Source: a virus. From it: a DNA stretch of 20,099 nucleotides. The position numbers and the translations under genes are program-made. The stretch is from the IMG/VR virus record IMGVR_UViG_3300022934_000261, positions 1 through 20,099 of that record; one strand, 5' to 3'. Positions 12,504 through 15,975 of the stretch are shown in pieces. Position 1 is the stretch's first letter; each line of letters begins with the position of its first letter. Under the pieces are notes generated by a model. That model was not told the DNA's origin and searched no databases. It saw nothing but the letters and a program-made list of their open reading frames with translations.

Positions 12504-12774
12504 GAGTAATCGTGAAAGTCTGCTTGCCTCGACTCGATACATACATTCCCCCAGCCGCTTGCTCAGTCGCCGCGTTTGCTGTGGTCGGCATAAACAAAAT
12601 CACGCTTGTCGCCCCAGCCCGATCCTCTGTCACTGCTGTCGAGGCCGCGCTTGCAGTCAGAGTCACAGAGCCTGTGGCATTGATCTTACCGTCTAATATG
12701 TTGTTAACGACCAGAGCCACCTCTCTGGCATCATTGTCCAGAGGGCTCAAACGCCTAAAGTTTGTGTCCGGCAT
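12451..12774 (-). CDS. Small beta-rich structural protein, 107 aa
   Basis: The N-terminus (MPDTNFRRLSPLDNDAREVALVVNN-type residues) is a polar helix, followed by a Ser/Thr/Ala-rich beta domain. Motifs such as VTLTASAASTAVTEDRAG, VILFMPTTANAA and FTITHANN occur. This same domain style appears in phage tail or fibre accessory proteins. The start overlaps the stop of the stabilisation-protein gene by one base (TGATG). A virion location is likely from neighbours and composition, but the specific role is not known. Confidence 0.65.
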   Translation of the reverse strand: MPDTNFRRLSPLDNDAREVALVVNNILDGKINATGSVTLTASAASTAVTEDRAGATSVILFMPTTANAATEQAAGGMYVSSRGKQTFTITHANNTQTDRKFDYIVIG

Positions 12775-14240
12775 CAGCGTGTCCCAAGAGGCCTTTGCTC
12801 TATGTCAACACCCTGCGCAAACTTCCAGTTTCCTGTCAGGTTCATGCGCACCTTGTGAAAGCGACCTTGCGCCCGGTGTTCGCAAAAACCGTTTGTGTTT
12901 AAATTAGAAGCCGTGCTGAAGCTCTGCGCAGCGTTTTGCAAGTTGCGTGTTGAGATTTGAACGTTGACGTCACCATTTTCAAAAAACGGTACAGTGCGGG
13001 TTATTATTGAATGGCGTCCTTTGTTCAGCACCGCTTCGGGCGTTTCAATAATTGCTGACAATATAGAGCCAGTGAAGGTCTGTATTTTTTTGTCCTTGCC
13101 ACCACCGAAGAAAAACTCTCCGCCTTGCAAAGCCGGATCGTCTAGCTGAATGTTTAGCGCATCCAAAGTTGCGGAGATGTTGTCGAGATCATCCAGCGTG
13201 TAGCCGCCGGTATAAAGTGCAGCCAATATTTCGATGTCGCTAAACACCGCATACGACCAACGGTTCAAAGCATAATTATAAAATAGGACGTAGTCCGCAA
13301 GTCCGCCAACTGAGTCAACGCTGGTGAAAGCCCACGCCACGATTTGTCTGCGGGGGTCTATCGCCGCTGACATATTTTGCAAATATTGAGTGTCTGCGTG
13401 ATCCCAAAACCAGCGGTTTATTTTTTCCGCACCGATAGGCTGTGCCCGCCTGCCATCAAACATGTAAAAACCGTCATCTGACAAAAAGTATGTGTTCGGG
13501 CCCATTGAGACCACACTTTGCGGCACCGCGCATCCTCTTGATGTCTCCACCAAGTCAATCTGATAGATCAGCGGTGTGCCGACATATTGAGCGACAGCAA
13601 TCCCACGCTCCATCAAAATGGTGGCGAACTCTCCGCCAGCCAGCCCGGTGATTGCGCCTGAGTCACCGCCAAAGATGTCTTGAAAGTCAGCTTGGTCAGT
13701 CCCTACCGTCCAGCTTGTTTCATCATTGACGCCTGACCAACGTGTGCGAAAAGGTATCTTGCCCGACCCCTCATCAATAGATGCCAACCACACCTGATCC
13801 CGCACGACAGCAATATAGTCAGCTTTCGGAGGTGTGCCGCCTAAATCAGCAAAGCTGGTGTCGGTGCCAAGAGTGAACTTTTGCAAGGCCTCGCCGGTGC
13901 CGCCCGCAGCAATCATTGTCTCTCCAAATTGGACAAACCGCCAACGCTCACCATCTGTCAGCGAATGCGTAACAGCCGCTTGAGTCACGTCATCAAGAGC
14001 ACTGGTCGCCGCATTAAATTTATACAGATTTGTTGCGTCACCAGCAAATAGTGAGGTGTTGCCATCATTGTCTTTGCCCGCAACGATCCCGCGTAACTTG
14101 TCGGTGGCTGCACCTGACAATGGTGCAAGTTCTTTTATTGACCGGTAGCCATTTGCAGCGGGTATGCAGTTCTTTGCGACCGTCACGCCTTTGTTGATTG
14201 TCTCAGGCTGATCCGGCAACCATTCTCCAAATTGTATCAT
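12774..14240 (-). CDS. DNA stabilisation protein, P22 gp10-like
   Basis: This 488-residue protein resembles podoviral packaged-DNA stabilisation proteins, which plug the portal/adaptor and link it to the tail. It starts MIQFGEWLPDQP and has KNCIPAANGYRSIKEL near residue 25, a SLFAGDATNLYKF blade and a DQVWLAS segment. It also has NTYFLSDDGFYMFDGRRAQPIG and a WSYAVFSD strand. These are repeated beta blades, as expected of a propeller. The ATG at 14240 overlaps the preceding stop (ATGA); a start at 14252 is possible but lies inside the upstream gene. It sits after the adaptor gene and before the ejection genes, the usual order for short-tailed phages. Confidence 0.75.
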   Translation of the reverse strand: MIQFGEWLPDQPETINKGVTVAKNCIPAANGYRSIKELAPLSGAATDKLRGIVAGKDNDGNTSLFAGDATNLYKFNAATSALDDVTQAAVTHSLTDGERWRFVQFGETMIAAGGTGEALQKFTLGTDTSFADLGGTPPKADYIAVVRDQVWLASIDEGSGKIPFRTRWSGVNDETSWTVGTDQADFQDIFGGDSGAITGLAGGEFATILMERGIAVAQYVGTPLIYQIDLVETSRGCAVPQSVVSMGPNTYFLSDDGFYMFDGRRAQPIGAEKINRWFWDHADTQYLQNMSAAIDPRRQIVAWAFTSVDSVGGLADYVLFYNYALNRWSYAVFSDIEILAALYTGGYTLDDLDNISATLDALNIQLDDPALQGGEFFFGGGKDKKIQTFTGSILSAIIETPEAVLNKGRHSIITRTVPFFENGDVNVQISTRNLQNAAQSFSTASNLNTNGFCEHRAQGRFHKVRMNLTGNWKFAQGVDIEQRPLGTR

Positions 14241-14947
14241 TGAGAGGCCCACGTTGCGGTTGTTGATGTTTGTGTTGTCCAGACGCCGGGTGCATCAGAC
14301 TGGTCGCTCCAAACGCCAGGTTGATCCGCAATAGGCGTCCAGTCTTCACCTAAAATTTTCATGGTGACTGCTGGGGTGACCACGATAGCGCCGGTCGATG
14401 GCATACTGAATATACCGTTTGCATTTGCGGTGACGCTGAATTCAAAGTCAGCCGTGCCAGCCGCCAATGTCACAAAGTTAAGAGTTGCGGTGCTTGTCAC
14501 CTGAATTGAAGCCGACGCAGATGCGGTGCGGACTCTAGTGCCTGACGCCGTTGCTGTGCCAACAGCCGTGACCAAAGCCTCAAATGGGCGCACTCTTAAA
14601 AACGCACTGGTTTGTGTAACGAGTGCCGTTACCGCAGCAGCAAGGGGGCGAATGCGTGTTGACGCAGTCCCCGCAGTGAAAGCAACGCTGGCTGTCCCCG
14701 CCATGCCTTTCAGCTTTGAGGCAGACGCGGTTGCAGATATCGATGTCGAGGCGGTGGCCTCCGCCACCTTTACCTCAAGGTCAACATTGTCGAGAGGGCC
14801 GTAGTTCCAATTATCAAGTGCGCCCCAACTGTCCATATGGTCGAGGACGGTTGCAGTCCACGCGACCTTATCTCCAAGTGTGTCCAGCGTTAGGGTGTAG
14901 CTGTCAAGGCTCCCCGATAGCCGGTCGAGTGGCGCTGTGCTAGGCAT
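14237..14947 (-). CDS. Repeat-containing probable virion protein, 236 aa
   Basis: The protein is not a family I can name. Residues about 1-57 are polar, with WGALDNWNYG. Residues about 58-180 form tandem 20-residue units in which a short hydrophobic/basic motif recurs at exact spacing (VK60, KLK80, RIR100, RVR120, RVR140, then degenerate at 160 and 180). Between these motifs the sequence is almost all Ala, Ser, Thr and Val. The end has Trp-spaced repeats (PGVW at about 217 and 227, then TTATW). The regular period and beta-prone residues suggest a beta-solenoid or fibrous fold. Its place between the small beta-type protein and the stabilisation protein points to a tail or head-surface component. 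Confidence 0.7.
   Translation of the reverse strand: MPSTAPLDRLSGSLDSYTLTLDTLGDKVAWTATVLDHMDSWGALDNWNYGPLDNVDLEVKVAEATASTSISATASASKLKGMAGTASVAFTAGTASTRIRPLAAAVTALVTQTSAFLRVRPFEALVTAVGTATASGTRVRTASASASIQVTSTATLNFVTLAAGTADFEFSVTANANGIFSMPSTGAIVVTPAVTMKILGEDWTPIADQPGVWSDQSDAPGVWTTQTSTTATWASQ
14408..14776 (-). repeat. Coding tandem repeat with a 20-residue (60-bp) period
   Basis: About six units cover residues 58-180 of the 236-aa protein. The repeat is clear in protein, with x-(K/R)-(V/I/L)-(K/R) every 20 residues, and weaker in DNA. That indicates old duplication followed by drift under a structural constraint. Confidence 0.7.
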
Positions 14948-15333
14948 TACCCTGCGGTAATATCCATGTCGCCAACAGCGAGTTTGAGTATATCACCTGA
15001 CTCAATTACTTTGCTTGCGGTCAGCGCTCCATGAATAAGAAGGTTGCCACCGCTTGAAGCGTCAAAGAGACCAAAATGGCTCACTGTCCCCCAAGATCCA
15101 GTTGCGGCAGAAAACTCAACAGCCGCATCATTTGAAGCAGTGCCGGATGACGCCGCGCCGAAGCTGACTGATTGACGAGAGTAGTTGTTTCCGGTCAGTT
15201 CTGTGCCACTATTGTCATCATTAAAAGATCCGGTGGACAAGCCGACGTAAACCGTTGTTGGCATGGTGTAGGCACCTGTTCCAAGCAGATGGTCGAGTAG
15301 CTCGTTCTCTGCGTAATCACTGAGCGCGCTCAT
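14947..15333 (-). CDS. Small beta-type phage structural protein, 128 aa
   Basis: The sequence starts MSALSDYAENELLDHLLGTG and continues YTMPTTVYVGLSTG, then NYSRQSVSFGAAS, and GSWGTVSHFGLFDASSGGN, and ends SGDILKLAVGDMDIT. This order is widespread in phage structural proteins, often annotated as tail fibre or capsid-associated. All these pieces are beta-prone, and there is no membrane or enzyme motif. AGGAG lies before the ATG, three bases after the adaptor stop. The virion location is well supported by family resemblance and neighbours; the exact site in the particle is not. Confidence 0.7.
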   Translation of the reverse strand: MSALSDYAENELLDHLLGTGAYTMPTTVYVGLSTGSFNDDNSGTELTGNNYSRQSVSFGAASSGTASNDAAVEFSAATGSWGTVSHFGLFDASSGGNLLIHGALTASKVIESGDILKLAVGDMDITAG

Positions 15334-15336
15334 TAC

Positions 15337-15975
15337 TTATACTCCTGTGTTCTGGCGTTGATAAATTGACTGTATTTGAAGTGAACCGGTGCCGTAATGC
15401 GCACGGCTTTCATCTTTGCGGATTTCTTCGATGGCGCGGCTGAACTTGCGGTCGTACACTTGGGCCCGTTGTTCATCCATCAAAAATGTGTAGGCCTCTA
15501 CAAGAGCCCCGCTAAGATATGCGTCCGGGTGACGAGTCAATATTGTGTTGGTGGCGTTAGTTGCCGATAAGGGAGTGATCTCGCCAATATAAACGATCTC
15601 CACCTCATATATCGCATCAGGAACAGGACGCAGCCGTATTTCATCACCAATTATTGAATAAGACTTTGGCTTGCCTTGTCCGGTTGTCGAGTGGTCTGAG
15701 TCAATCGCTGTTGGGCTTTTATATTCAAGCACGGTCAAAGGTGAGGTGTTTAGTTTAACCTCACGCACCTCACGCAAGTCGGTCGGCAAGGCTATGTACT
15801 CATTGCCCGCAACCGTTGAGGCAGTCGCCCGCTTTTCCTGAGAACGTGACTCAAGCTCACGTGACATTCTGACCTCTGCCAGTTTGATAAAGTCTGGGAT
15901 TTGCGCGGTTAGGTCTGTTCTTGCTAAGAATGACTCAACGGTATTTTGCAAATCAGTGTACGTTGCGATTGCCAT
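15337..15975 (-). CDS. Head-tail adaptor (gp4-like tail accessory factor)
   Basis: This 212-residue protein has the features of podoviral adaptors that dock under the portal. The N-terminal helices are TYTDLQNTVESFLARTDLT and IPDFIKLAEVRMSRELESR. A beta part follows (IALPTDLREVREVKL; YSIIGDEIRLRPVPD), then a helical C-terminus with HPDAYLSGALVEAYTFL and a long charged helix. The ATG overlaps the preceding stop by one base (TAATG). Lying between the capsid gene and the stabilisation protein, it fits the portal-adaptor-stopper order. Confidence 0.78.
   Translation of the reverse strand: MAIATYTDLQNTVESFLARTDLTAQIPDFIKLAEVRMSRELESRSQEKRATASTVAGNEYIALPTDLREVREVKLNTSPLTVLEYKSPTAIDSDHSTTGQGKPKSYSIIGDEIRLRPVPDAIYEVEIVYIGEITPLSATNATNTILTRHPDAYLSGALVEAYTFLMDEQRAQVYDRKFSRAIEEIRKDESRAHYGTGSLQIQSIYQRQNTGV

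Follow-up and report, generated by a model that had tools for sequence, protein, structure and literature searches.

The window analysed here, the whole stretch of 20,099 bases of a virus record, holds on its minus strand an unannotated gene for a protein built largely of 20-residue repeats, raising the question of what such a protein may do and what keeps its repeats at exactly that length. The features concerned are the following.

14237..14947, minus strand: gene of the repeat protein, 236 aa, in three parts with seven 20-residue repeats (from the ORF, the periodicity and the third-codon-position bias)
14774..14947, minus strand: N-terminal segment, residues 1–58, with the conserved LD-rich motif APLDRLSGSLDSY...WGALDNWNYG; putative anchor
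14354..14773, minus strand: repeat block, seven 20-residue units, residues 59–198; putative gp80 docking region
14240..14353, minus strand: C-terminal segment, residues 199–236, with Trp at 203, 213, 224 and 233
14947..15333, minus strand: gp80 homologue, fiber I bead protein, 128 aa (Pfam PF23140 Gp80, 3.5e-45; PDB 8JOU chain a, 6e-13)
15337..15975, minus strand: SU10-type adaptor protein of the neck (PF24175, 3.1e-38)
12774..14252, minus strand: virion structural protein in the nozzle position (phrog_3287, 3.1e-72)

The strict 20-residue repeats described in the earlier note proved to be real: in a substitution-matrix autocorrelation of residues 56–195 the main peak lay at lag 20 (z 6.9) and a second one at lag 40 (z 4.6), and 2000 shuffles that preserved the composition never reached the lag-20 value at any lag between 2 and 59. 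Arranged in rows of 20 from residue 59, the protein gives seven units ending at residue 198; the array reaches slightly beyond the extent proposed before (14408–14776). The basic-hydrophobic-basic motif said to recur along the array is complete in four copies (KLK at 78–80, RIR at 98–100, RVR at 118–120 and RVR at 138–140), while the first copy reads E-V-K (58–60) and the last two F-V-T and G-I-F. The seven units are on average 21% identical to each other (range 5–45%). In the C-terminal segment the Trp residues are spaced by approximately 10 residues, and similar Trp tails are present in the corresponding proteins of L184, Venkman (gp51), ctXG6705 and MW202462, with the number of Trp units differing from phage to phage.

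Neither PHROGs (E-values up to 0.1) nor Pfam (above the family cut-offs) gave a match to the protein; bMG10 (0.016) and Pilin_PilA (0.78) were rejected as lying under the curated Pfam cut-offs. Several sequence searches found no such sequence among the PDB chains: matches to histones and to MpAFP (0.19–1.9) were rejected as compositional, and 9LC0 (E 0.004) was rejected as well, its aligned stretch (VNTVAT...) being presumably a helical fibre repeat. Opposite the repeats, at 14526–14804 of the plus strand, lies a 92-aa ORF, which is probably an antisense shadow of the Ala/Thr/Arg codons.

The gene order was more informative. In the direction of transcription, an SU10-type major capsid gene (PF17236, 5.3e-74) is followed by a 150-aa ORF, the SU10-type adaptor, the gp80 homologue, the repeat protein and the nozzle-position protein, whose role as a nozzle is suggested by this order. 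The gp80 stop codon overlaps the start codon of the repeat protein by one base and a possible ATG of the nozzle-position gene at 14240 would overlap the stop codon of the repeat protein as ATGA, so the three genes appear to be translationally coupled. The gp80 family is labelled 'head protein' in PHROGs (PHROG 240), but the structural evidence identifies it as a bead of neck or tail fibres: the model of a close relative (L057) matched chain a of PDB entry 8JOU in Foldseek with a TMt of 0.80, and this entry, entitled 'Fiber I and fiber-tail-adaptor of phage GP4', contains ten gp80 chains.

The Ralstonia podophage GP4 reportedly carries five fibers I, each consisting of five gp80 dimers joined by an elongated rope protein. 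As the upstream neighbour of the repeat protein belongs to the gp80 family of this fiber, the rope was an obvious hypothesis, and we consider the repeat protein, with a probability of about 0.73, to be the rope of a bead-on-rope neck fibre with the architecture of GP4 fiber I, to which gp80 would bind. The window and GP4 share the gp80 bead family by Pfam, sequence and fold, and the partner chain in the window has seven repeated sites and no independent fold predicted for it. The kind of fibre, gp80 beads on a rope, is known from GP4, and the rope of the window would be a member of it.

In such a fibre the rope would be laid along the row of gp80 beads, each 20-residue unit serving as an extended, strand-like docking site for one bead (monomer or dimer) and the R-hydrophobic-R step marking the start of each site. 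An extended chain measures 0.33 nm per residue, and 20 extended residues would span about 6.6 nm, which is a plausible bead spacing. The distance from bead to bead would fix the length of the unit and the number of units would set the number of beads, while either the LD-rich N-terminus or the Trp-rich C-terminus would anchor the chain to the tail. Domains fused to the ropes of other phages would be payload, and extra domains of such appearance are present in L155, L156, L268 and the large protein of Slicko01. The ten gp80 chains of 8JOU against 10–11 units (counted by eye) in the rope of the Burkholderia phage CSP3 suggest one unit per gp80 monomer, and the seven units of the window do not pair into dimers; an arrangement by dimers would suit several ropes in which the lag-40 signal is at least as high as that at lag 20.

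The association of the two genes was examined in 95 loci obtained by rope searches, of which 87 were testable (rope N-terminus present with at least 420 nt upstream). In all 87 testable loci gp80 ended at most 80 nt from the rope start, whereby some of the linkage loci were one contig fetched twice, so that the distinct stretches number 57 and the distinct rope proteins 53. In the window, the gp80-family bead gene shares a tail operon with the rope. In Venkman and ctXG6705 the gene adjoining gp80 was without the repeat and a canonical 20-residue rope was located a few genes away.

Period-20 repeats were further sought around gp80 genes of other phages. The first set comprised 196 loci, 194 of them with a gp80 ORF, forming 34 clusters at 75% identity; the other ORFs of at least 100 aa were scored for any period from 12 to 30 with 250 shuffles. 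Among 259 ORFs 20 were repetitive, 11 of these at a period of exactly 20 (those in L181 and L223 being antisense to the likely rope gene, with sense-ORF lag-20 z values of 3.7 and 6.9), and the remaining periods were 17 (3), 12 (2), 22 (2), 13 and 24. One example within this count is MEP401 gp59, annotated as 'tail protein'; two further examples outside it are the CSP3 gene after gp80 (lag-20 z 7.5) and gene 31 of Vincenzo, a 'minor tail protein' (z 7.7). Counting against the proposed rope, no period-20 ORF passed the threshold within the available DNA in 23 of the 34 clusters. Among them, Venkman and ctXG6705 had the canonical rope farther off, and L176, L180, L182 and L216 stayed below the threshold, yet lag 20 or 40 was the best one in the adjacent gene (z 4.6–8.2); in the remaining clusters the rope may be absent, weaker or located outside the DNA.

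The second set, drawn from bacterial genomes of many phyla, comprised 48 gp80 loci; periods and threshold were those of the first set, with 200 shuffles. Of its 528 ORFs, 33 were repetitive and 24 had a period of exactly 20, spread over 24 loci, with the caveat that five of these 24 ORFs lie on the minus strand and the one in L258 resembles an antisense shadow of a rope; the other periods were 22 (4), 12, 16, 21, 23 and 26, and the other 24 loci gave no period-20 ORF. The gp80 profile found the gp80 ORF in 31 of the 48 loci, although all 48 were confirmed relatives at retrieval, so in the other 17 the 528 ORFs may include the gp80 ORF itself.

Seven control segments (lambda, SU10, T7, P22, Mu, Felix O1 and the first 50 kb of Slicko01) contained two repetitive ORFs among 221, with periods of 21 and 14 and none of 20. 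In 37 T7-like and Mu-like loci with 460 ORFs, a single repetitive ORF was detected; its period was 20, and its locus, L322, was alone among the control loci in having a gp80 match (9.8e-18). The Fisher value of 2.5e-8 serves as a guide only, since the loci are related and not independent. Altogether, repeats of exactly 20 residues are enriched in the vicinity of gp80 genes across unrelated phages and prophages, and the period of exactly 20 was found next to gp80 in podo-, sipho- and myo-type tails.

Two other repetitive proteins were observed in these loci. Venkman gp55 (L239:7365-9554), an 'FhaB-like adhesion protein', has a strong period-17 repeat and forms a separate repeat class. In the Psychrobacillus phage PVJ1 the product of the gene after gp80 (L106:5402-6427), annotated as 'putative portal protein', starts with about 100 rope-like repeat residues. 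The part that follows them we take to be a baseplate region (tail protein I-like).

An alternative explanation is that the chain forms a beta fibre or solenoid on its own, for instance as a trimer, in which 20 residues make up a rung or a strand pair and gp80 is a mere neighbour. Small and hydrophobic residues do alternate in the rope, other rope families look like beta repeats, and a low-confidence AlphaFold2 model of gp80 and rope in cis (L057) showed short strands at approximately every 10 residues of the rope. However, the rope predicted alone from a 20-row alignment had a mean pLDDT of 32 and no usable fold. In the cis model gp80 reached a pLDDT of 70–91 (10-residue block means) and the rope next to the single gp80 remained mostly below 50 (36–55 as 10-residue block means), with no confident docking; this speaks against the proposed rope, although a single gp80 copy is a weak test because the bead is a dimer. 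Past the gp80-like chains at ranks 1–7, which also included neck chains of Bas63 and Sf14 (9C39_K), the L057 model matched no PDB fold with E below 0.4. Furthermore, it is exactly 20, and not 18–24, that recurs near gp80, and the one control locus with this period also carries gp80. We therefore regard the self-standing beta fibre as unlikely; the findings favour a rope that acts as a scaffold chain and owes its 20-residue spacing to the size of its partner protein gp80.

The regularity itself was followed in an alignment of the window protein with 19 of 34 relatives (43–90% identical; near-duplicates and fragments excluded). No indel was present in residues 1–208 in any of the 19, and the gaps were confined to the C-terminal tail, where three rows end early. 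The spacing, noted earlier as exact in spite of drifted sequences, is thereby confirmed, and the periodicity, whose absence in homologues would have spoken against it, kept its register in 19 of 19 aligned relatives. Conservation was phased within the unit, with 0.94 at position 2 (R/K) and 0.84 at position 20 (R) against 0.48–0.80 at the others. The N-terminal segment was the best-conserved part, with a mean pairwise identity of 0.79 over the 20 aligned sequences, and the fourth unit (RVRPFEALV...) was the best-conserved one with 0.76. Compared to the close relative L002, 95 of 120 base differences fell on third codon positions, showing that the rope gene is under purifying selection.

These data bear on a second alternative, namely that the protein is a disordered Ala/Ser/Thr/Val linker whose period is a functionless relic of an old tandem duplication. 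The low-complexity composition, the mutual identity of the units of just 21% and the low pLDDT would fit such a linker, but a relic would lose its register, in contrast to the indel-free residues 1–208, the conservation in phase with the unit (positions 2 and 20) and the third-position bias of the base changes, making this explanation improbable. The earlier idea of a thin virion fibre selected for strict spacing stands on the same register and on the position of the rope gene, flanked by the gp80 fibre gene on one side and the gene of a virion structural protein on the other. Of its two further elements, a self-standing regular beta structure was not supported by the predictions described above, and a spike on the capsid surface was supported by no result.

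The rope family is fairly uniform in size. Among 82 distinct matches, fragments counted, 56 had 236–239 aa and 11 had 209 aa, and the longer members included two of 296 aa and two of 442 aa. A count by eye gave seven units for the 209-aa form too, whose N-terminus is shorter, and ten for the 296-aa form. In the ropes at L155:2240-3580 and L156:3448-4788 an additional N-terminal domain of some 200 residues precedes the LD motif. That the protein is a receptor-binding adhesin rather than a scaffold, as the 'serine-rich adhesin' annotation of similar proteins and the extra domains of L155 and L156 might imply, is very improbable, since the window-family chain consists of an anchor, repeats and a Trp tail and shows nothing resembling a globular domain, and the extra domains are restricted to some relatives, as payload.

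A possible origin of the rope N-terminus as a copy of a motif in the nozzle-position protein was considered and kept as a lead: the signal was strong in MW202462 only, with no shuffle of 500 as good, while it was weak in the window (11/500) and in C72C1 (18/500) and absent in ctXG6705 (200/500) and Venkman (384/500). In the phage with the strong signal (L099) the rope N-terminus (L099:4389-5216) has the sequence TLDSLDNLKASLDDLTLSLDS, resembling TLDELDSLSASIDALAISLDS in the adjacent 'stabilization' protein (L099:5220-6878).

Several known systems can be set beside the proposed fibre. CSP3 encodes a gp80 of 140 aa, the same length as the 8JOU chain, and directly after it the 20-residue-repeat protein, which differs from the rope of the window in its 10–11 units (by eye) instead of seven and in its N- and C-terminal segments. 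GP4 itself is called Bcep22-like in the title of one reference. The neck whiskers of the myophages Sf14 and Bas63 (PDB 9C39 and 9MT4) share a gp80-fold chain in the neck, but they are single short whiskers and not chains of beads. As described for Sf14, its whiskers are composed of gp30 and gp31 dimers, with one gp30 chain threading through both. The gp80-fold chain 9C39_K is probably gp31, because in Felix O1 the ORF at the place of gp31 resembles gp80 (phrog_240, 6.2e-29; 2e-6 in a two-sequence search); the whisker partner in Felix O1, ORF54, has no 20-residue repeat. With the Sf14 whisker there is thus one solved structure in which a protein of the gp80 fold is assembled with a partner threading through it.

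A further parallel is provided by the gp34–gp36 module of Alishewanella phages, described for LSH1. There, gp35 matches 8JOU_g by HHpred, gp34 has a lyase-like N-terminal domain, and the C-terminal region of gp34 and the spacers in its myoviral relatives gave poor models, for which the authors wondered about a repetitive motif (PMC13243795). The expectation drawn from this paper, a period-20 repeat near a gp80-like ORF, was borne out in both of the related phages Slicko01 and Slickus01. In the myovirus Slicko01, covered for 100 of 141 kb, a gp80-like ORF (8.7e-6) lies, with one gene in between, near a repeat protein of 1843 aa (L235:12138-17669) with z values of 8.6, 9.0 and 8.2 at lags 20, 40 and 60, and Slickus01 combines a gp80-like ORF (5.6e-6) with a period-20 protein of 2314 aa. 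Judging from their size, these large proteins are presumed to be the gp34 relatives of the LSH1 paper. The likeness of the LSH1 gp34–gp36 module thus runs through Slicko01 and Slickus01, which pair a gp80-like ORF with 20-residue repeats, and it differs from the window in that the repeats belong to very large proteins; it suggests that the module is a bead-on-rope fibre with a lyase-like payload. The Anabaena myophage A-1(L) has bead-chain-like fibres on a 15-fold neck ring and, in the portion of its description consulted, no rope chain; the likeness is one of description only, the 'gp80' of its gp80–gp82 being a coincidence of numbering.

A broader claim would be that the 20-residue repeat is a general stringing code, by which n units string gp80-family beads into a side fibre with its length encoded by n, in podo-, sipho- and myophages and in prophages of many phyla, and that many large repetitive proteins annotated as 'adhesins' or 'minor tail proteins' would be ropes with payload; we give this generalization an even chance. 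The literature found (PMC9698820, PMC10966104, PMC13243795, PMC11966396, PMC12810830, PMC11821841, PMC10925440 and PMC11784390), in its accessible parts, did not describe the 20-residue rule, although the GP4 tail paper may do so.

For the window, an unannotated virion protein gains a proposed function and mechanism, and a signature, the period of exactly 20, becomes tied to a bead protein listed by PHROGs as 'head protein'. The same signature offers an explanation of the region that the LSH1 authors could not interpret. If the proposal is true, a class of phage side fibres would be recognisable from sequence alone.
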